This document shows, piece after piece, positions 47,310 to 54,546 of a stretch of DNA of 64,000 nt. Every line of letters begins with the position of its first letter. Positions within the stretch are counted from its first letter, which is position 1. The notes beneath the pieces were generated by a model that searched no databases, had not been told where the DNA came from, and saw only the letters and a program-made list of their open reading frames with translations. A program made the position numbers and the translations under genes. Source of the DNA: Moraxella ovis (GTDB lineage: Bacteria > Pseudomonadota > Gammaproteobacteria > Pseudomonadales > Moraxellaceae); NCBI RefSeq assembly GCF_900453105.1, contig NZ_UGPW01000001.1, positions 1,364,001-1,428,000 of the forward strand. The letters run 5' to 3'.

Positions 47310-47498
47310 TCACCCCTTTAAATTCTTATGCTTTTTTATCATCTCTTTTAACACCCGATTATTATCATCAAACCTACGACAGGTAGGACACATCAAAAGA
47401 TGAAACTTTACCGTCATTTTTTGGGATAAAGTCAATGGCTCTTCTTGTGATAGACTCATAAGTTCAGTCATTTTTTGGCAATTCTTTAATTGTTTCAT
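47310..47498 (-). CDS. small zinc-finger-like putative anti-sigma factor
   Basis: 62 aa from MKQLKNCQKM, with GAGGGGG upstream; the longer start lies inside the sigma gene. One Cys near the start (KNCQ), a His in VKFHLLMCPTCRRF and CxxC make an HxxxCxxC-type motif, the zinc-binding anti-sigma pattern. It follows the ECF sigma gene by 11 bp, which supports an anti-sigma role. Confidence 0.7.
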   Translation of the reverse strand: MKQLKNCQKMTELMSLSQEEPLTLSQKMTVKFHLLMCPTCRRFDDNNRVLKEMIKKHKNLKG

Positions 47499-47509
47499 TG
47501 TATCCCCCT

Positions 47510-48097
47510 CTAAACAAACCATTTTACCGACAAACACATTTGCAATCTTAATCTAGCTCTGTGCAATAACACATATAAATTCTGTCGAGTAATATTTAGA
47601 TTCTTACAAATCTCATCACTATCCAATTCTATATATTCTTTCATCAAAAAAACTTGTGCCTGCTCTTTGGGCAGATTCTCCAAACAAAGTTCCAATACTT
47701 GCCAAAATTCATCATTTTCAGCTGTTTCATGCGGACTTGCCCAGCGATTATCAAAGGCATTTGGCGATGAACCGTTTTGCCAATGCCCAATATCATCAAA
47801 CAGCATTGCCAAAAATTCTTCATCGCTATTTTCACTCATGTCGCTCATGACTTCATAATGTTTGTTTTGGCGGATAAAGTCGGCAATTTTATTTTTTAAA
47901 ATGGCAAATACCCATGTTTTAAAGGCGGACTTTCCTTGAAAACTATCGGCATATTTTAGGGCATTTAAGAGAGCATCTTGCACCACATCTTTGGCGTGCT
48001 GTTCGTGATTTAATTGGTTATACGCAAAAGCAAACATGGACTGATATATCTCGTCCATGCTTTTTTTATCAAATTGGCGTAATTGTATTTGGTGCAT
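47510..48097 (-). CDS. ECF-type RNA polymerase sigma factor
   Basis: 195 aa from MHQIQLRQFDKKS; the longer frame from 48151 begins with a TTG next to the MITE. Region 2: DEIYQSMFAFAYNQLNHEQHAKDVVQDALLNALKYAD. Region 4: LCLENLPKEQAQVFLMKEYIELDSDEICKNLNITRQNLYVLLHRARLRL. It follows a DoxX-DUF2063-DUF692 set and precedes a zinc-finger protein, as in other copper-bufferin loci where such sigma factors control the operon. Confidence 0.9.
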   Translation of the reverse strand: MHQIQLRQFDKKSMDEIYQSMFAFAYNQLNHEQHAKDVVQDALLNALKYADSFQGKSAFKTWVFAILKNKIADFIRQNKHYEVMSDMSENSDEEFLAMLFDDIGHWQNGSSPNAFDNRWASPHETAENDEFWQVLELCLENLPKEQAQVFLMKEYIELDSDEICKNLNITRQNLYVLLHRARLRLQMCLSVKWFV

Positions 48098-48153
48098 TTT
48101 TAAGTCAAAAAAATTTGAAATAAGACAAGGAAAACGGGCGAAGCTGTACAAAT

Positions 48154-48359
48154 AGGGCGTGTTGAACTTTTATATTTGCAATGAAAAATGAGAAAAATCG
48201 CACGTTTTTCAAGGAAAAAACTTAAGGCTGATAGTCACTCTATCAGACCAGTTTTTGACGCAGAAAAACAAGATTTAGCCATTTTTCATGCAAAAACATC
48301 ATTTCATTTTCACAAGATTTCTAAATTTTAAATTGTGTTATAAAGGTTCGGCACGCCCT
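48154..48359. mobile_element. MITE copy 2 (206 bp) between doxX and sigma genes
   Basis: Left end AGGGCGTGTTGAACTTTTATA, right end read inward AGGGCGTGCCGAACCTTTATA: two 21-bp inverted ends differing at 3 positions. Internally there is a hairpin near 48228-48250 (CTGATAG and CTATCAG) and the same blocks as copy 1 (AAGATTTAGCC, CATGCAAAAACA, GTGTTATAAAGGTT). No flanking duplication is visible. It lies 57 bp upstream of the sigma start on the minus strand. Confidence 0.8.
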
Positions 48360-48384
48360 CACTGTGAACGAGTTTGACACAGTA

Positions 48385-49023
48385 CTATTTCAAAGTTGGC
48401 AGACTTTTATTTATCCAAAAATCCATGCTTATATAACGCCCTGCCCCATAAATAATTAGCACAAGTAACATGATAAAATAAGTCATGCCAAATTCTATGC
48501 CATTATTTAAGACCACAAAATTACCCGTTTCGGTCAGCCAATCATAATTGCCATGCGTTTGTAAGATTTCACGGGCTTTATTTAATCGCTCGCCTGCTTG
48601 TATGGAATTATCCAAACTTGCCTGTCCCAATCCGCCAAATAATTGGGCGATATTGGTCGCAGGGTCGGTTGGGGTAATGGCGTGCCAGCCGTTTTTTAAA
48701 TGCACAAGGAGCATGGCAACCGCCATTGTGATTGCCAATAACACGCCAAAAAAACGAGTCGCCACGCCGAGTAATAACGCCACACCACCAATCAATTCAG
48801 CAACAATCACCATTGCCACCCAAAAGGATGCAAATGGCAAACCAAGCCCCCAATCGGCATTACCAAACCACTGTGCCGTATCATCAAACGAACGGTATTT
48901 GGTTAGCCCTGCCATAATAAACACAGGGGCAAGATAAAGACGAATGGCGAATAATGGCAAAAAGTCCAATTTATTTAAATTTACAACAAATTTATTGTAA
49001 TAAGCGCTGTATTTTTTTATCAT
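48385..49023 (-). CDS. DoxX-family membrane protein (HvfD/BufD-like)
   Basis: 212 aa. Four membrane segments with the DoxX feature LYLAPVFIMAGLTKYRSF and AELIGGVALLLGVATRFFGVLLAITM. It follows DUF2063 (HvfC) by 17 bp. DoxX proteins accompany copper-bufferin and related peptide operons, where they are thought to act in the membrane step. The exact function is not known. Confidence 0.85.
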   Translation of the reverse strand: MIKKYSAYYNKFVVNLNKLDFLPLFAIRLYLAPVFIMAGLTKYRSFDDTAQWFGNADWGLGLPFASFWVAMVIVAELIGGVALLLGVATRFFGVLLAITMAVAMLLVHLKNGWHAITPTDPATNIAQLFGGLGQASLDNSIQAGERLNKAREILQTHGNYDWLTETGNFVVLNNGIEFGMTYFIMLLVLIIYGAGRYISMDFWINKSLPTLK

Positions 49024-49040
49024 AATTTACCTTATTTTTA

Positions 49041-49832
49041 TTAAAAAGATTGGTTATAAAAAATTTGATTATCAATCATTGTATTGACCAAATCATCAAA
49101 CGAAGTTTTGATATTATCAAAAATCTCATCATTTAATTCAAAGGTGCGTTGTAGCTCTGCCAATAACTCATTTGTATTTTGATAACATACCTCTTCATTT
49201 TGCTTTTCTTGCATAAAGGTTAGTATGATAAAACTAAGCTGGCTTATGGTCATAAATGCCGTTTTAAATGTACCGTCCACCACTTTACGATACACCACCA
49301 AAAAAGTGGGGCTTTTTTGACTGGGAGAAAATGCCACGCTAATATCCTGCACCGCCCATTCGTAATATAAAATCTGGGCGGTATGATTGATAAAAATAGA
49401 CGCATTTTGATACATTAAAATAGGCTTGGGAGTATTGTTCGGTAGATTATCTACAAACAATTCCACCCATTCATAATGAGCAAATTCTGACAAATAAATG
49501 GGCAAATCAAATTTTGTCAAAACATCATCGGTCAAATAGCCGACAAATTGCTCGGTAATTTCACTAAAATACGGACTTGCCATATCGCCATGTTTTAAAA
49601 AATCTTTAATCAGATTTTGCCAAACCAATATGCCAAAATGCGTCTCAATAATACTGCGAGTAATGGGAAAGCATTGATTGACAAAGCCAGAGACATTATT
49701 ATAAATCAGATTTTGATATAATTGCCCCACACGAGCAGGCACGGTATCGGTATTATCGTGTTTTTGTTTGCGGATATAATCGCCAAATTCACGCTGAAAG
49801 ATGCGTAACTTGGGTGCTTTATCAATCATCAT
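49041..49832 (-). CDS. DUF2063 protein (HvfC/BufC-like)
   Basis: 263 aa. The N-terminal DUF2063 helical domain (LRIFQREFGDYIRKQ, QLYQNLIYNNVSGFVNQCFPI) and a C-terminal alpha/beta part. In methanobactin and bufferin systems this MbnC-like partner forms a complex with the DUF692 enzyme and presents the precursor peptide. It lies 35 bp downstream of that gene. Confidence 0.88.
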   Translation of the reverse strand: MMIDKAPKLRIFQREFGDYIRKQKHDNTDTVPARVGQLYQNLIYNNVSGFVNQCFPITRSIIETHFGILVWQNLIKDFLKHGDMASPYFSEITEQFVGYLTDDVLTKFDLPIYLSEFAHYEWVELFVDNLPNNTPKPILMYQNASIFINHTAQILYYEWAVQDISVAFSPSQKSPTFLVVYRKVVDGTFKTAFMTISQLSFIILTFMQEKQNEEVCYQNTNELLAELQRTFELNDEIFDNIKTSFDDLVNTMIDNQIFYNQSF

Positions 49833-49867
49833 TGTTATGCCACTTTATTAAATCATCATTAAAATAA

Positions 49868-50776
49868 TTAGGCCAATTTAAATGTAGAATTATTTTTATG
49901 GCGTTCTTGAATTTCCCGAATGAATTTAACTTCACGGGTAAGCTCGCTAAGTTCTGGGAAATTAAAATCACGCTCCAAACAAGTCGGAATCTTATCTGCC
50001 GTTTTACCTGTTTTGGCAAATATCAAACCATAAGCGTCATTTAATAACGCCCAAACACGCTCCACCACACTATCGCCATGCGTATCCACAATCAAGCCGT
50101 CATCATCCACATAATGCCCAGCAACGTGCAAATAACACGTCCGCTCGAGCGGCAATTCACGCAAATATTGGTGTGGGTCAAAACCAAAGTTTTGGCTATT
50201 GACAAAAATATTATTCACATCTAAATGCAATAAACAATCAGCTTCTTTTACCACCGCAGAAATAAATTCACTGTCGGACATTTGGCTTTGGGGTGGTAGA
50301 TAATAATATGAGGCGTTTTCAATGCCAATTTGAGAGCCTAAAATATCTTGTACTTTTTTAATACGCTCGGCAACCCAAAATACCGCTTCTTCGGTGCAAG
50401 GAATGGGTAATAAATCATACAAATGCCCTTTGTCATCACTACACCAAGACAAATGCTCGGTAAATAAATTGATGTTATGCGACTTCATAAAATGCTTAAT
50501 ATTATTTACATGAGCCACGTCCAATTCTTTTGAACTGCCAATAGATAAAGAAAGTCCATGACAAATAAAAGAAAACCGCTCGCTATAAGCACGCAAGATA
50601 TTTTCAAAACGTCCGCCCATAATTCCGTGGGAGTTTATCCAATTTTCAGGCGACACTTCAAAAAAATCAATCTGGCTTAATTGATGAATGGCATTGGCAT
50701 CATCAAGAGACATTTGTGGCAATAACTCACGGCGAAAGCCAAGCCCTGCCCCGTGTAATGGTCTTTTACTTGTCAT
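49868..50776 (-). CDS. DUF692 multinuclear iron oxygenase (HvfB/BufB-like)
   Basis: 302 aa TIM barrel. Candidate metal ligands are FICHGLSLSIGS, FTEHLSW, IGIENASYY, LLHLDVNNIFVN and YLHVAGHY (His, Glu, Asp), the MbnB pattern. MbnB-type enzymes convert Cys of a precursor into oxazolone-thioamide, a copper ligand. The likely substrate is the EGKCG-rich protein at 53011-53448. The intervening genes (DUF2892, rhodanese, RclA-like, DUF2798) are unusual guests. Confidence 0.9.
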   Translation of the reverse strand: MTSKRPLHGAGLGFRRELLPQMSLDDANAIHQLSQIDFFEVSPENWINSHGIMGGRFENILRAYSERFSFICHGLSLSIGSSKELDVAHVNNIKHFMKSHNINLFTEHLSWCSDDKGHLYDLLPIPCTEEAVFWVAERIKKVQDILGSQIGIENASYYYLPPQSQMSDSEFISAVVKEADCLLHLDVNNIFVNSQNFGFDPHQYLRELPLERTCYLHVAGHYVDDDGLIVDTHGDSVVERVWALLNDAYGLIFAKTGKTADKIPTCLERDFNFPELSELTREVKFIREIQERHKNNSTFKLA

Positions 50777-50792
50777 TTTATTTTCCTAATTA

Positions 50793-50994
50793 TTAGGGTT
50801 TGTTATCAACATGGCATTTGCAAGTGCTGATGCCCAAAATATGATAAATGGGGCAAAAATTCATAAAGCCTGTCAATAATGGCACAAGCCCAACAATTCC
50901 CCCACTACGAACCAAAATAAGTACCCAAGCCAATAATGACAACACCCAAAATAATTCGTACGATTTTATCAGGTTTACCAACATTGATTTTCAT
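50793..50994 (-). pseudogene. DUF2892 inner-membrane protein, stop and frameshift
   Basis: Frame one starts MKINVGKPDKIVRIILGVV (ATG 50994) and ends at TYFGS-TAG, where TGG (Trp) is expected. A run of five G, where four would keep the frame, then shifts the rest, which continues in another frame as GLVPLLTGFMNFCPIYHILGISTCK. Both halves match DUF2892 (YgaP C-terminal type). Two lesions within 10 bp. Confidence 0.75.
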
Positions 50995-51004
50995 AAAATA
51001 CCTC

Positions 51005-51394
51005 TTAACGATAGCCCTGTTGTTTTAGGTCTTCATAACCACCGTGATTGGTAACATTGGTATAGCCCAATTTTAAGAGTTCTGTACGAGCGGCTTCGGC
51101 ACGTCTACCACTACGGCAATACAGATTGATAGGGTTGTCTTTATTAGGCTCAATGGCAGAAATCTTTGATGCAATATCGCCAACAGGGATATTGACGCTA
51201 TTTGACAAATGCCCTGCTTGATACTCTTCTGGGCTACGCACATCAATCCAAACGCCTTTTGCTTTTGGTTTGATTTGTGATTGAGTTTGGGTTTGAGATT
51301 TGGCATTGTTTTGTTTTGATGAGGTATTGGCAAAACTGTTACACGCAGTTAATCCCAAAACGCTAATTGCAATGGCAAGAGTGAGTTTTTTCAT
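51005..51394 (-). CDS. rhodanese-domain lipoprotein
   Basis: 129 aa. Lipobox LTAC after MKKLTLAIAISVLG gives a periplasmic lipoprotein. One rhodanese domain: GVWIDVRSPEEYQAGHLSNSVNIP, active Cys in NLYCRSGRRAEA. It could transfer sulfane sulfur or act on thiols. It is placed with DUF2892, a common pairing (YgaP combines both in one protein). Confidence 0.9.
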   Translation of the reverse strand: MKKLTLAIAISVLGLTACNSFANTSSKQNNAKSQTQTQSQIKPKAKGVWIDVRSPEEYQAGHLSNSVNIPVGDIASKISAIEPNKDNPINLYCRSGRRAEAARTELLKLGYTNVTNHGGYEDLKQQGYR

Positions 51395-51438
51395 AAGACA
51401 TCTTCTAAATTACACCAATTAAATTTATTTAAAAACAA

Positions 51439-52755
51439 TTAAAATTCAGCAAATAAATCATTTAATGATTCGCTAATGGTTGGGTGCGTAAAAATTTGCC
51501 CTTTAAAATAATCCGCTTTAACGCCATTATCCATTGCCAATTTAAATAAATTGATAATCTCATGGCTATTTTCACAAAACAACGTAACGCCCAAAATCTC
51601 GTTATTGTCTTTATCCACAATCGCTTTTAATAAGCCTTTGGTATTGCCTGTGATTTTGGCTTTGACAATGGTTTGGGCGGGCAAGGTTGCCACTTGGTAA
51701 TTTTTGCCACTGTCTTTGGCTTGTTTTTCGCTCAGGCCAATTTGTGATAAAGGCGGTGTGATAAAAACACTCGTTGGGAAGGTGTGGCGGTCGGCTCTGT
51801 GGCGTGTGCCGTTCCCAAACAAATCATCCGCCACAATGCGATAATCATCAAGCGAGATGTAGGTAAACTGCGGTGAACCTGCGACATCGCCCATCGCCCA
51901 AATGTGGTCGGTGGCTTTTAGTTTGTCATCGCACACAACATAGCCACGCTCGCTTAGCTGTACGCTTGTGTTTTGTAGGTTTAGACCACCTGTGTTAGGT
52001 CGTCTACCAATGGCGACAAGCACAGCATCAGCGTCAAGGGTCATCTTATCGGTGATGACTTGGGTATACTCTGTTAGGTGTTTAAACTCTTGGACATCTT
52101 GCCCTAAATGCACCGTAATGCCACGCTCATTTAATAGGTCAAGCACAATCGCACGCACATCATCATCGACGTTTGGCAAAAAGCTGTCAAATTTTTCAAC
52201 AATGCTCACTTGACTGCCAAAAGCGTGATACATAAAGGCAAATTCAAGGGCGATAAAGCCTGCACCCACGATAACCAGTCGCTTGGGGGCAGTCGCTTGG
52301 CTGTCGCCTAAGTTTAAAAGCCCCGTGCTGTCATAAACACGCTCGCCGTCCACGCCTGCAATCGGTGGCATAATGGGGGTCGTGCCTGTGTTGATAAAAA
52401 TCCGCTCGGCACGCACCGTCTCGCCTGTGGATAGGGCAACAGTGTTATCATCAACAAAGCTCGCTTGTGCATTAATGACGGTTACATTTGGCAAATCATT
52501 GATTTTGTTAAAATTAGCTTCACGCAAGGCAGAGATGAGCTTGTCCTTGTCCTGCATGGCAACAGCAAAACTGTCTGTTTTGGCTTCATGAATCAGTTTT
52601 TTTGACGGAATACAGCCCACGTTAATACACGTTCCGCCATACATTTTGTCCGATTGCTCAACCAAAATGGTACGCTCTCCCTGTTTGTCAAACAGCCCTG
52701 CCAGCGTTTTGCCTGCTTTACCAAAGCCGATGATTAAGTTTTTAGTTTGTATCAT
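51439..52755 (-). CDS. rclA: RclA-like pyridine nucleotide-disulfide oxidoreductase
   Basis: 438 aa. FAD site LIIGFGKAGKTLAG, redox disulfide GGTCINVGCIPSKKL, NAD site VIVGAGFIALEFA, and the RclA-like block QFTYISLDDYRIV and a C-terminal IFTHPTISESLNDLF. E. coli RclA is reported to be a hypochlorite-induced enzyme that reduces Cu(II) using NADH. Here it lies in a copper-bufferin operon, which fits a copper-redox role. Confidence 0.88.
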   Translation of the reverse strand: MIQTKNLIIGFGKAGKTLAGLFDKQGERTILVEQSDKMYGGTCINVGCIPSKKLIHEAKTDSFAVAMQDKDKLISALREANFNKINDLPNVTVINAQASFVDDNTVALSTGETVRAERIFINTGTTPIMPPIAGVDGERVYDSTGLLNLGDSQATAPKRLVIVGAGFIALEFAFMYHAFGSQVSIVEKFDSFLPNVDDDVRAIVLDLLNERGITVHLGQDVQEFKHLTEYTQVITDKMTLDADAVLVAIGRRPNTGGLNLQNTSVQLSERGYVVCDDKLKATDHIWAMGDVAGSPQFTYISLDDYRIVADDLFGNGTRHRADRHTFPTSVFITPPLSQIGLSEKQAKDSGKNYQVATLPAQTIVKAKITGNTKGLLKAIVDKDNNEILGVTLFCENSHEIINLFKLAMDNGVKADYFKGQIFTHPTISESLNDLFAEF

Positions 52756-52764
52756 AAAAAACTC

Positions 52765-52998
52765 TTATGACGACCAACGTCCAAGCGTCCGTTCAGTCAA
52801 ACGCACAACCAAAGGACGCAAAGATAAAATGCACATAAAGGTAATAGGCATGGTTTTGATGTATGCCCAAAATACTCTTATTAGGTAATTATCATCTATC
52901 CCTGTATTCATGGCGACAGATACCAGCGACATGATGAATGCCATTATCACCGCCATGTAAAGGGCAAAAATCACAGATGAAAATTTGTTAGACACCAT
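52765..52998 (-). CDS. DUF2798-family small membrane protein
   Basis: 77 aa with two hydrophobic segments (FALYMAVIMAFIMSLVSVAM and MPITFMCILSLRPLVV), typical for DUF2798. It lies 12 bp after the HvfA-like gene and 9 bp before the RclA-like gene, so it is part of the same operon. Function unknown. Confidence 0.75.
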   Translation of the reverse strand: MVSNKFSSVIFALYMAVIMAFIMSLVSVAMNTGIDDNYLIRVFWAYIKTMPITFMCILSLRPLVVRLTERTLGRWSS

Positions 52999-53010
52999 GA
53001 TGACATGGGA

Positions 53011-53448
53011 TTATTTGTTACCGCCACAACTGGCATTAGCATTTTTGTCGGTGCTTGCTCCACAACTGGCAGTTGCTGATTTGTCGGCGGTAGCAGTAGC
53101 AGTGTTCGCTCCACAACCTGCATTAGCACTTTTATCGCCTGCTTTTGCTTCGGCTCCGCATTTGCCTTCGCCACATTTGCCCTCACCGCATTTGCCTTCG
53201 GCTGATTTGTCGGTCATGGTGGCACTGCACCCTGCTTCGCCACATTTGCCCTCACCGCATTTGCCTTCGGCAGTTTTGGTAGCGGTAGCGGTGTTAGGCT
53301 CGGCAGTAGCAGGCTGAGCTGGCTCGGCATTTTGGTAGCCTTGCTCCATGGGCTGGGCTTCTACCTTTTCTTCTTTACAAGCAGTAAGTCCTGTGGCAAG
53401 CAGGGTTGCTACGGCAAGACCTGTGATTTTACGGTTAAGATTTGACAT
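53011..53448 (-). CDS. HvfA/bufferin-like copper-binding precursor
   Basis: 145 aa from MSNLNRKITG, with GGAG 6 nt upstream. A signal sequence ends with a lipobox-like LTAC. The mature part is low complexity and rich in EGKCGEGKCG repeats, with further CG motifs: CGANTA, CGAST, CGGNK. EGKCG-type peptides are substrates of MbnB/MbnC-type enzymes in bufferin (Buf/Hvf) systems that sequester copper in the periplasm. The lipobox would add membrane anchoring; a soluble form is also possible. Confidence 0.87.
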   Translation of the reverse strand: MSNLNRKITGLAVATLLATGLTACKEEKVEAQPMEQGYQNAEPAQPATAEPNTATATKTAEGKCGEGKCGEAGCSATMTDKSAEGKCGEGKCGEGKCGAEAKAGDKSANAGCGANTATATADKSATASCGASTDKNANASCGGNK

Positions 53449-53491: not shown

Positions 53492-53520
53492 TTAGACGGA
53501 CGTGGGGCAAATATCTTACA
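53492..53520 (-). promoter_or_regulatory. candidate ECF promoter of the bufferin operon
   Basis: On the minus strand TGTAAG (53515-53520), 16-bp spacer, CGTCTAA (53492-53498), 43 bp upstream of the hvfA-like ATG. Element types and spacing are usual for ECF promoters. It would link the operon to the sigma gene downstream. Confidence 0.5.
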
Positions 53521-53537: not shown

Positions 53538-53714
53538 TTAAAAATTGTTGTCATACCCCTTATGTTTTAGGTGCAAACGTATTTTGGCACGCTCTTTTTT
53601 ATGGCGTGTTTTGGGGTTGTCTTTATCATGAACACCACCCTTCTTCAACAAAGGATTTAGTGCAGTTTGATTGCGCGTTTTAATTACACTTGGACAAATT
53701 AGGCGGTTTGGCAA
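53538..53714 (-). CDS. small basic ORF, uncertain
   Basis: Minus-strand frame of about 58 codons ending at TAA (53538-53540): LPNRLICPSVIKTRNQT, then LNPLLKKGGVHDKDNP and KERAKIRLHLKHKG. It is strongly basic, with a protein-like composition. No ATG exists; TTG at 53714 is the only nearby start and a stop lies further upstream. It might be a remnant or a non-coding sequence. Confidence 0.25.
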   Translation of the reverse strand: MPNRLICPSVIKTRNQTALNPLLKKGGVHDKDNPKTRHKKERAKIRLHLKHKGYDNNF

Positions 53715-54057: not shown

Positions 54058-54546
54058 TTATTCGCTGACAGTTTTAATGATTAATTTCTCAGCACCCACC
54101 AAAGTGTTCTCCACCTGAGTATAATTAATATTCGTCTGCGCAATCATCGCCTTAGTGTCGTTAAAGCTCACCAAAACTTCATCATCCACCTGTGTCACCA
54201 ACACCTTTAATGGTAGCTGCAGCGCAAAGGTGGGTTCTTGGATCATTAATGGCGTGCCCGCTTTTGGATTGCCAAACACAATAACGGTCGCAGGCTGCAT
54301 ATCAAGACCCGCTTCCTTAGCGGCTTGTTGATGGTCGATGGTCGCAAATACCGCCATACCTTTGCTTTGGATGGCAGCAGTTAATCTCTCAACCGTCTGT
54401 TCAAAGCTGTATTTGCTTTTGATGGTTTGCTGTTTCATGATTTTATTCTCCGCATGAATGACAGGTGTTTTTGGGGGGTTGTCAGGCAGACTAGTACACG
54501 CACCCAAAAGCATGGTAGCAACAATTAATACAGGTAAAGTTTTCAT
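54058..54546 (-). CDS. DUF302 lipoprotein
   Basis: 162 aa. Lipobox LGAC in MLLGACTSL. The DUF302 core spans SKYSFEQTVERLTAAIQSKGMAVFATIDH to VIVFGNPKAGTPLM, and FALQLPLKVLV. DUF302 proteins have an alpha/beta fold and occur near copper or stress genes in many bacteria. The gene is on the same strand, upstream of the bufferin operon but about 600 bp away. Confidence 0.85.
   Translation of the reverse strand: MKTLPVLIVATMLLGACTSLPDNPPKTPVIHAENKIMKQQTIKSKYSFEQTVERLTAAIQSKGMAVFATIDHQQAAKEAGLDMQPATVIVFGNPKAGTPLMIQEPTFALQLPLKVLVTQVDDEVLVSFNDTKAMIAQTNINYTQVENTLVGAEKLIIKTVSE

Follow-up and report, generated by a model that had tools for sequence, protein, structure and literature searches.

An hvf operon of Moraxella with inserted RclA-like reductase and rhodanese genes, proposed to join copper and oxidant defence

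Introduction

The hvf (oxazolin, or Buf_EGKCG) operon of Haemophilus influenzae is described as a set of four genes encoding the precursor HvfA with its EGKCG repeats, the MNIO enzyme HvfB, the DUF2063 protein HvfC and the DoxX-family protein HvfX, and no RclA, rhodanese, DUF2892 or DUF2798 gene is named among them (PMC13419390). An hvf locus of Moraxella ovis bears on the role of copper-binding ribosomally synthesized and post-translationally modified peptides (RiPPs) in host-associated bacteria. This locus lies in a stretch of 64,000 nt (hereafter the window; contig NZ_UGPW01000001.1, positions 1,364,001 to 1,428,000) of a 2.32 Mb genome in three contigs (G000). It has the same four hvf components, and genes for an RclA-like flavoprotein reductase and a rhodanese lipoprotein stand between hvfA and hvfB. 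On balance, the locus is probably an Hvf operon that has gained further genes and so come to answer envelope stress from copper and oxidants alike.

A few Buf_EGKCG clusters are reported to carry oxidored_molybd or ferric-reductase genes, which belong to other families and set a precedent for additional redox genes; rhodanese, RclA, DUF2892 and DUF2798 go unmentioned in the main text of the same landscape paper (PMC12452194). A literature search by titles and abstract openings, which does not establish absence from print, found no description of the combined operon, and a search for HvfA together with Moraxella returned nothing.

Sigma factors of the extracytoplasmic function (ECF) type have been linked to related genes in two species. 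The sigma-E operon of Neisseria meningitidis, NMB2140-2145, contains a DoxX-family gene, an ECF sigma factor and an anti-sigma factor with the zinc-binding anti-sigma (ZAS) motif (PMC3240639, PMC2893595), as does the window, and the operon is reported to rise upon deletion of the anti-sigma gene (PMC3240639). The other direct sigma-E target described there is msrA/msrB, whereas the locus in the window adds the RclA-rhodanese pair inside the operon. In H. influenzae, RpoE2 has a related small anti-sigma factor and controls msrAB, and a DoxX/COG3220/DUF2063 cluster, which is hvf by its labels, was strongly RpoE2-dependent after exposure to hypochlorous acid (HOCl) (PMC7907618). The sigma gene of H. 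influenzae is found close to msrAB and is separate from the DoxX cluster (PMC7907618); in the window it follows hvfX.

The RclA protein of Escherichia coli is reported to reduce Cu(II) and to protect cells that face HOCl together with intracellular copper (PMC7527725); it has also been described as an enzyme of defence against hypothiocyanous acid (HOSCN) (PMC12096828, PMC11107202).

Results

Gene content of the extended hvf locus

Ten genes follow one another on the minus strand from 53448 to 47310. HvfA (53011..53448, 145 aa) is followed by a small DUF2798 protein (52765..52998; PF11391, E 1.2e-17), the flavoprotein reductase of the RclA/Har family (51439..52755; NF040477, E 4.5e-162), a rhodanese-domain lipoprotein (51005..51394; PF00581, E 2.7e-17) and a YgaP-like transmembrane gene of the DUF2892 family (50793..50994; PF11127, E 2.7e-10 on the C-terminal part). 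Then come HvfB, the MNIO (DUF692) RiPP maturase (49868..50776; PF05114, E 2.5e-89), its partner HvfC (49041..49832), HvfX (48385..49023), the ECF sigma factor (47510..48097) and the zinc anti-sigma factor (47310..47498). Thus, all parts named in an earlier note on this DNA are present by Pfam and NCBIfam matches, and the four inserts stand between the precursor and the DUF692 enzyme in the order that it gave, except that the DUF2892 frame is broken and DUF2798 is not a constant member. From hvfA through hvfX, the open reading frame (ORF) coordinates leave intergenic gaps of 9-44 nt, and a scan of the minus strand found just one terminator-like site between hvfA and hvfX, inside hvfC. The gap between hvfX and the sigma gene, for which we took the ATG at 48097 as the start, is about 285 nt and holds an interspersed repeat.

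HvfB, HvfC and HvfX all reach the NCBIfam equivalog level (377.8 bits for NF003818, cut-off 360; 166 bits for NF050145, cut-off 142; 210.7 bits for NF050144, cut-off 80). HvfA exceeds the domain model NF050137 (45.4 bits, cut-off 19.5) and falls below the HvfA equivalog model NF050188 (25.9 bits, cut-off 95), and by these scores we regard it as a divergent HvfA. Motif reading gives an N-terminal signal, five EGKCG motifs and ten cysteines including that of a lipobox, LTAC; in the five further genomes whose hvf locus contains RclA, HvfA has two to five EGKCG motifs. The H. influenzae HvfA is described with an N-terminal secretion signal, whereas the lipobox indicates that the window HvfA is probably a lipid-anchored lipoprotein. 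A lipobox-like motif occurs in 12 of 15 HvfA proteins, one per locus, from Moraxella and two related genera (the exceptions are in L103, L104 and L210), and elsewhere in one locus of the 37, out of 45 surveyed, that have an EGKCG-type ORF (the remaining eight have none). On these counts, which are of motifs and not of signal-peptide predictions, the anchored HvfA looks like a feature of this lineage, and HvfA is predicted to be able to act as an anchored lipoprotein. The word "lipoprotein" occurs once in the main text of the landscape paper, for Buf2 bufferins (PMC12452194). Behind its signal sequence, Moraxella HvfA has a QGYQN-like motif, which may be a recognition site for the maturase; most EGKCG-type ORFs at class level have a related xxxGYxx motif, whereas those from 16 loci of other Moraxellaceae genera lack it.

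YgaP consists of a rhodanese and a membrane domain in one protein. No such single protein is present at the locus, where the rhodanese, which carries a lipobox (LTAC) and the active loop CRSGRR by sequence reading, and the YgaP-like transmembrane protein are encoded by two separate genes. In the window, the DUF2892 frame starting from 50994 ends after 29 codons, and the listed ORF 50984-50793 takes its N-terminus from another frame.

Distribution of the inserted genes

We searched 22 Moraxella genomes for strong matches to HvfB (E <= 1.2e-132) and RclA (E <= 3.2e-121), scoring as hvf-negative one genome that is 63% complete and has weak HvfB matches at E 5e-9 (G014). HvfB was found in ten of them, RclA in ten and both in seven. 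In six of the ten hvf-positive genomes, RclA, rhodanese and DUF2892 are located between HvfA and HvfB; RclA identity among the six is 76-100%, and each of them retains RclA and rhodanese in the same order and with open frames. At this locus, the window is closest, among named relatives, to Moraxella caprae, M. bovoculi and M. lacunata (RclA identity 97-99%); the named loci L005-L007 coincide with three of the six. The DUF2892 gene is open in all five relatives with the same arrangement (L096-L100). Of the six genomes, that of the window and M. lacunata (G005, L096) alone have DUF2798; since the other four lack it, we dropped it as a constant part of the operon.

The seventh genome with both genes, G004, has its RclA-rhodanese pair elsewhere, behind a DUF302 gene. 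Its hvf locus, like those of G008 and G017, contains no RclA, rhodanese or DUF2892, and in G010 the rhodanese alone stands between HvfA and HvfB. Among the genomes without strong HvfB, G019 retains RclA, as does G021, which also has a DUF302-rhodanese pair and the decayed remnant of an hvf locus. This remnant (L212, G021:C17) consists of the anti-sigma gene, a sigma gene with an internal stop and part of HvfX; its 10-kb stretch gave no match to HvfA, HvfB or HvfC, and RclA is kept elsewhere in the genome. Overall, RclA occurs in 7/10 hvf-positive and 3/12 other Moraxella genomes, counts that are not corrected for descent and that we do not use as proof. One of the 22 genomes, G007, yielded no candidates for RclA, rhodanese or HvfB, nor even the common flavoprotein paralogues, and its data are possibly masked or unusual.

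In a related genus, DUF302-RclA-rhodanese genes lie away from hvf in two of six genomes. One of these, G067, carries two hvf loci with different HvfA types (L210 and L211), neither of them linked to its RclA-rhodanese pair; L211, the one with the promoter-like site described below, has DUF2892 alone between HvfA and HvfB and no HvfX match.

In wider sets of genomes, HvfB is more frequent than RclA. At E <= 1e-90, RclA turned up in 13 of 199 genomes of the family and, among 369 of the class, only in the window's own, whereas HvfB was found in 61 of the former (E <= 1e-40) and 117 of the latter (E <= 1e-60). The idea that RclA within hvf is a widespread arrangement was therefore dropped. The earlier note had proposed to look for the same inserted genes in hvf loci of other genomes; the RclA-rhodanese-DUF2892 block recurs in Moraxella as described above, DUF2798 is not conserved with it, and no rhodanese, RclA, DUF2798 or DUF2892 was found, within flanks of up to about 1.5 kb, at 45 HvfB loci from other genera, of which 29 belong to the 117 HvfB-positive genomes of the class and 16 to the family set. 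The four were likewise not found at four further hvf loci (L148-L151). Conversely, no hvf genes accompany RclA in 76 other RclA loci outside Moraxella, a poor sample consisting mostly of Mycobacterium and its relatives.

A promoter-like site upstream of hvfA and of an unlinked RclA-rhodanese pair

Comparison of the sequences upstream of hvfA yielded the pattern TGTAAG-N17/18-GTCTAA, which in the window reads TGTAAG-N17-GTCTAA (53492..53520, minus strand) and is a putative sigma-E-type ECF promoter of the operon. The pattern precedes hvfA in all ten hvf-positive Moraxella genomes, exactly in eight and with one changed base in two (G004 and G008, where GACTAA replaces GTCTAA). The site upstream of hvfA is its only exact match in the whole genome G000, in which the reversed control pattern also has one match. 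Across the 22 Moraxella genomes there are 15 exact matches (six for the reversed control), distributed over nine genomes that are all hvf-positive; eight are upstream of hvfA and seven elsewhere. The 12 other Moraxella genomes have no exact match. In G067, the sole two exact matches in 2.4 Mb precede the hvfA of L211 (C39) and the unlinked RclA-rhodanese pair (C15). This promoter-like site common to linked and unlinked cases is the key new point of our analysis, in which the arrangement itself stands as a new form of the Hvf operon.

The site resembles the neisserial sigma-E consensus, GTMAGBWTT-N12-13-CGTCTAAH, given in a study of N. meningitidis (PMC2893595). The window site, GTAAGATAT-N12-CGTCTAAG, agrees at 7/9 and 7/8 positions, that is, 14/17 with a spacer of 12, and the 16 sites scored, including this one, reach 13-15/17 with spacers of 12-13. 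Of the roughly 128,000 start positions that the window offers, 4 score at least 14 and 65 at least 13. By the consensus alone, a score of 13 is therefore not rare; the specificity of the site comes from the exact pattern and its conservation. A second conserved exact sigma-E-like site was noticed in G010 and G017 (L190 and L192), before a small membrane protein that by our own reading, with no tool result, is isoprenylcysteine-methyltransferase-like.

The ECF sigma factor encoded near the end of the locus scores 204.6 bits with TIGR02943 (cut-off 162.2) and the anti-sigma factor 58.7 bits with NF052368 (cut-off 50). The latter has the form C-x25-H-x3-C-x2-C and so matches the ZAS pattern C/H-x23-26-H-x3-C-x2-C; a looser version, C/H-x20-28-H-x3-C-x2-C, is found in all seven anti-sigma factors of relatives that were checked. 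The ZAS motif has been given for the N. meningitidis and Streptomyces coelicolor relatives of H. influenzae HrsE (PMC7907618). Taken together with the short gaps, the shared promoter-like site supports joint expression of hvf and the inserted genes, and to that extent the single operon proposed earlier.

Active-site residues of the RclA-like flavoprotein

By sequence, the closest solved structure to the window RclA is 6kgy (E 1.4e-126), which is E. coli RclA (PMC7527725, PMC11107202). HOSCN reductases are reported to be told from glutathione and thioredoxin reductases by two active-site lysines, beside cysteines, a histidine and a glutamate (PMC11107202). The window protein has K13, K16, C43 and C48 (CxxxxC) and HxxxxE at 424. 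The lysine motif GFGKAGKT is present in 12 of 13 Moraxellaceae RclA proteins, and the thirteenth has GFGKGGKT with both lysines kept; the motif was found in none of the ten paralogous flavoproteins of the genus that were checked among 20 fetched. The window RclA is a probable reductase for defence against HOSCN and HOCl. It shares its active-site residues with the RclA-family reductases of E. coli rclABC, Streptococcus pneumoniae Har and Staphylococcus aureus MerA, and differs from these systems in its partners, a rhodanese lipoprotein and the hvf genes, and in its linked regulator, an ECF sigma factor. No family of the RclB, RclC or RclR type was found among the ten genes of the locus, to which this search was confined.

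Discussion

A model for the extended operon

The widened operon that we favour would work as follows. Oxidants (HOCl or HOSCN produced by host peroxidases) or metal stress would inactivate the zinc anti-sigma factor, and the freed ECF sigma factor would transcribe from the site at 53520 through hvfX as a single message. HvfB and HvfC would turn the cysteines of the HvfA EGKCG motifs into copper-binding thiooxazoles, and the exported HvfA, probably lipid-anchored in this lineage, would hold copper. RclA would act in the cytosol, using NAD(P)H to reduce HOSCN and possibly also Cu(II). At the envelope, sulfane sulfur or thiocyanate would be handled by the rhodanese lipoprotein, together with the YgaP-like membrane protein in genomes that have it intact. 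The sequences show the gene content and order, their conservation in a group of close relatives, the active-site residues and the conserved promoter-like site; from these we infer that the genes are transcribed together and induced, that each enzyme has the activity of its family and that combining them is of benefit. The arrangement suggests that, in this group of Moraxella, the defences against copper and against oxidants act jointly. If so, one bacterial switch would tie together the responses to two host weapons, copper and peroxidase-made oxidants.

Several observations weigh against this model. The terminator scan places a terminator-like hairpin between hvfX and the sigma gene. The RclA-like protein misses both the RclA and the MerA equivalog cut-offs (539.7 bits against 740 for NF040477, its best NCBIfam model, and 496.5 bits against 650 for NF041853), which makes it a family member and not a called equivalog. 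With its frame broken, DUF2892 seems to be dispensable in this strain, provided that the assembly is correct, and G009 has an RclA-rhodanese pair without any detected HvfB. As for the promoter-like site, the second hvf locus of G067 lacks it, and an exact match is found at just two of seven stand-alone RclA loci, those of G067 and G072; the other five genomes with such loci (G004, G009, G019, G021 and G167) have no exact match anywhere. In G072, one of two matches precedes RclA, yet no ECF sigma factor of this kind and no HvfB were detected. At the RclA loci of both G067 and G072, moreover, the -10 half overlaps an inverted repeat, so that the site could belong to another regulator, and both sites score 13/17, within the range that 65 window positions attain. 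Finally, oxidative stimuli are reported to have left sigma-E expression in N. meningitidis unchanged (PMC2893595).

A broader proposition, which we put forward tentatively and with clearly less confidence than the model itself, is that the Hvf copper peptides of mucosal bacteria belong, as one of several arms, to a defence directed specifically at copper combined with (pseudo)hypohalous oxidants. On this view, a sigma-E-type switch would have put a cytosolic HOSCN/Cu(II) reductase and an envelope sulfur arm, consisting of the exported rhodanese and the YgaP-type protein, on the same transcript, and HvfA would have become membrane-anchored. The pairing would have arisen twice, by merger in Moraxella and by promoter sharing in the genus of G067.

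Origin of the inserted genes and other explanations

An RclA tree of 30 rows, rooted at the midpoint, groups the hvf-linked proteins with that of M. nasovis (P0007) and with P0003-P0006. Near this group are proteins of Testudinibacter, Actinobacillus, Chelonobacter, a Neisseria sp., Riemerella, Prevotellaceae, G019 and M. caviae (P0087), and six other Moraxellaceae proteins (G004, G009, G021, G067, G072 and G167) form a separate, well supported group; two or more acquisitions of RclA within the family are therefore probable. In four of these six genomes (G004, G009, G067 and G072, not G021 or G167), the gene next to RclA encodes a rhodanese with a signal sequence. The rhodanese tree groups the hvf-linked proteins, including that of G010, with weak support, which tentatively suggests a single entry of the rhodanese into hvf.

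These relationships could also mean that an RclA-rhodanese cassette landed by chance in the hvf locus of one Moraxella ancestor and has been carried since without functional coupling. The arrangement is confined to one group of close relatives, whose RclA has closer relatives in Pasteurellaceae, a Neisseria sp. and Prevotellaceae than among the six other Moraxellaceae proteins, implying transfer, and DUF2798 and DUF2892 come and go or decay. Nevertheless, we consider such neutral mobility unlikely: RclA and rhodanese have stayed intact and in order in all six genomes while RclA identity has fallen to 76%, both RclA groups have members beside an exported-type rhodanese, and one unlinked pair has the hvfA site.

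The earlier note took the locus for a combined unit of copper sequestration, copper reduction and sulfur handling. In a copper-specific unit of this kind, RclA would make Cu(I) from Cu(II) for capture by HvfA, and the rhodanese would supply sulfur or alter the modification of HvfA. HvfA, HvfB and HvfC are indeed encoded by copper-peptide genes (PMC13419390), and E. coli RclA is reported to reduce Cu(II) (PMC7527725). However, HvfB and HvfC are described as oxidizing the HvfA cysteines (PMC13419390), RclA is missing from the locus in four of the ten hvf-positive Moraxella genomes, and the RclA-rhodanese pair is also found away from hvf. Direct hand-over of copper from RclA to HvfA is unlikely as well, since RclA has no export signal on reading and the exported HvfA would bind copper outside the cytosol. 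Copper reduction as the sole role of RclA was dropped as our main interpretation, because the protein has the active-site signature described for HOSCN reductases and because E. coli RclA is important when HOCl and copper act together; Cu(II) reduction is a possible but secondary activity. We regard a purely copper-directed unit as more doubtful still than chance insertion. As to the sulfur handling, its sole basis is the rhodanese fold and the CRSGRR loop.

That RclA and rhodanese serve cyanide or sulfide (persulfide) handling and not defence against host oxidants, with the YgaP-like protein moving sulfane sulfur out or in, is the least probable explanation: it draws on the CRSGRR loop, the YgaP-type membrane protein and Holdemania (Bacillota), in which a rhodanese one gene upstream (3/76 other RclA loci) and an Rrf2-like regulator, named by reading with no tool result, precede RclA, but RclA has the HOSCN-reductase lysines that the ten paralogous flavoproteins of the genus lack, and the genera of its named best relatives are mostly mucosal.

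Other features of the locus

Directly upstream of the operon, a DUF302 lipoprotein gene (54058..54546, minus strand; PF03625, E 1.1e-19; lipobox by reading) is of uncertain membership. A gene of this kind directly precedes the stand-alone RclA-rhodanese pair in G004, G067 and G072 (neighbours in L168, L207 and L208).

Within the gap between hvfX and the sigma gene (48104-48384), there is an insert some 200 bp long, the short ends of which are inverted copies of each other (GGGCGTG/CACGCCC). It is also present in M. bovoculi (L098) and absent from M. lacunata (L096), and part of it is repeated at two further places in the genome; in these respects it looks like a small repeat of the miniature inverted-repeat transposable element (MITE) type. 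For a short ORF that precedes hvfA (53538-53714), Pfam gave no match at E values of up to 1, and DNA like this stretch also stands upstream of hvfA in L096-L099.

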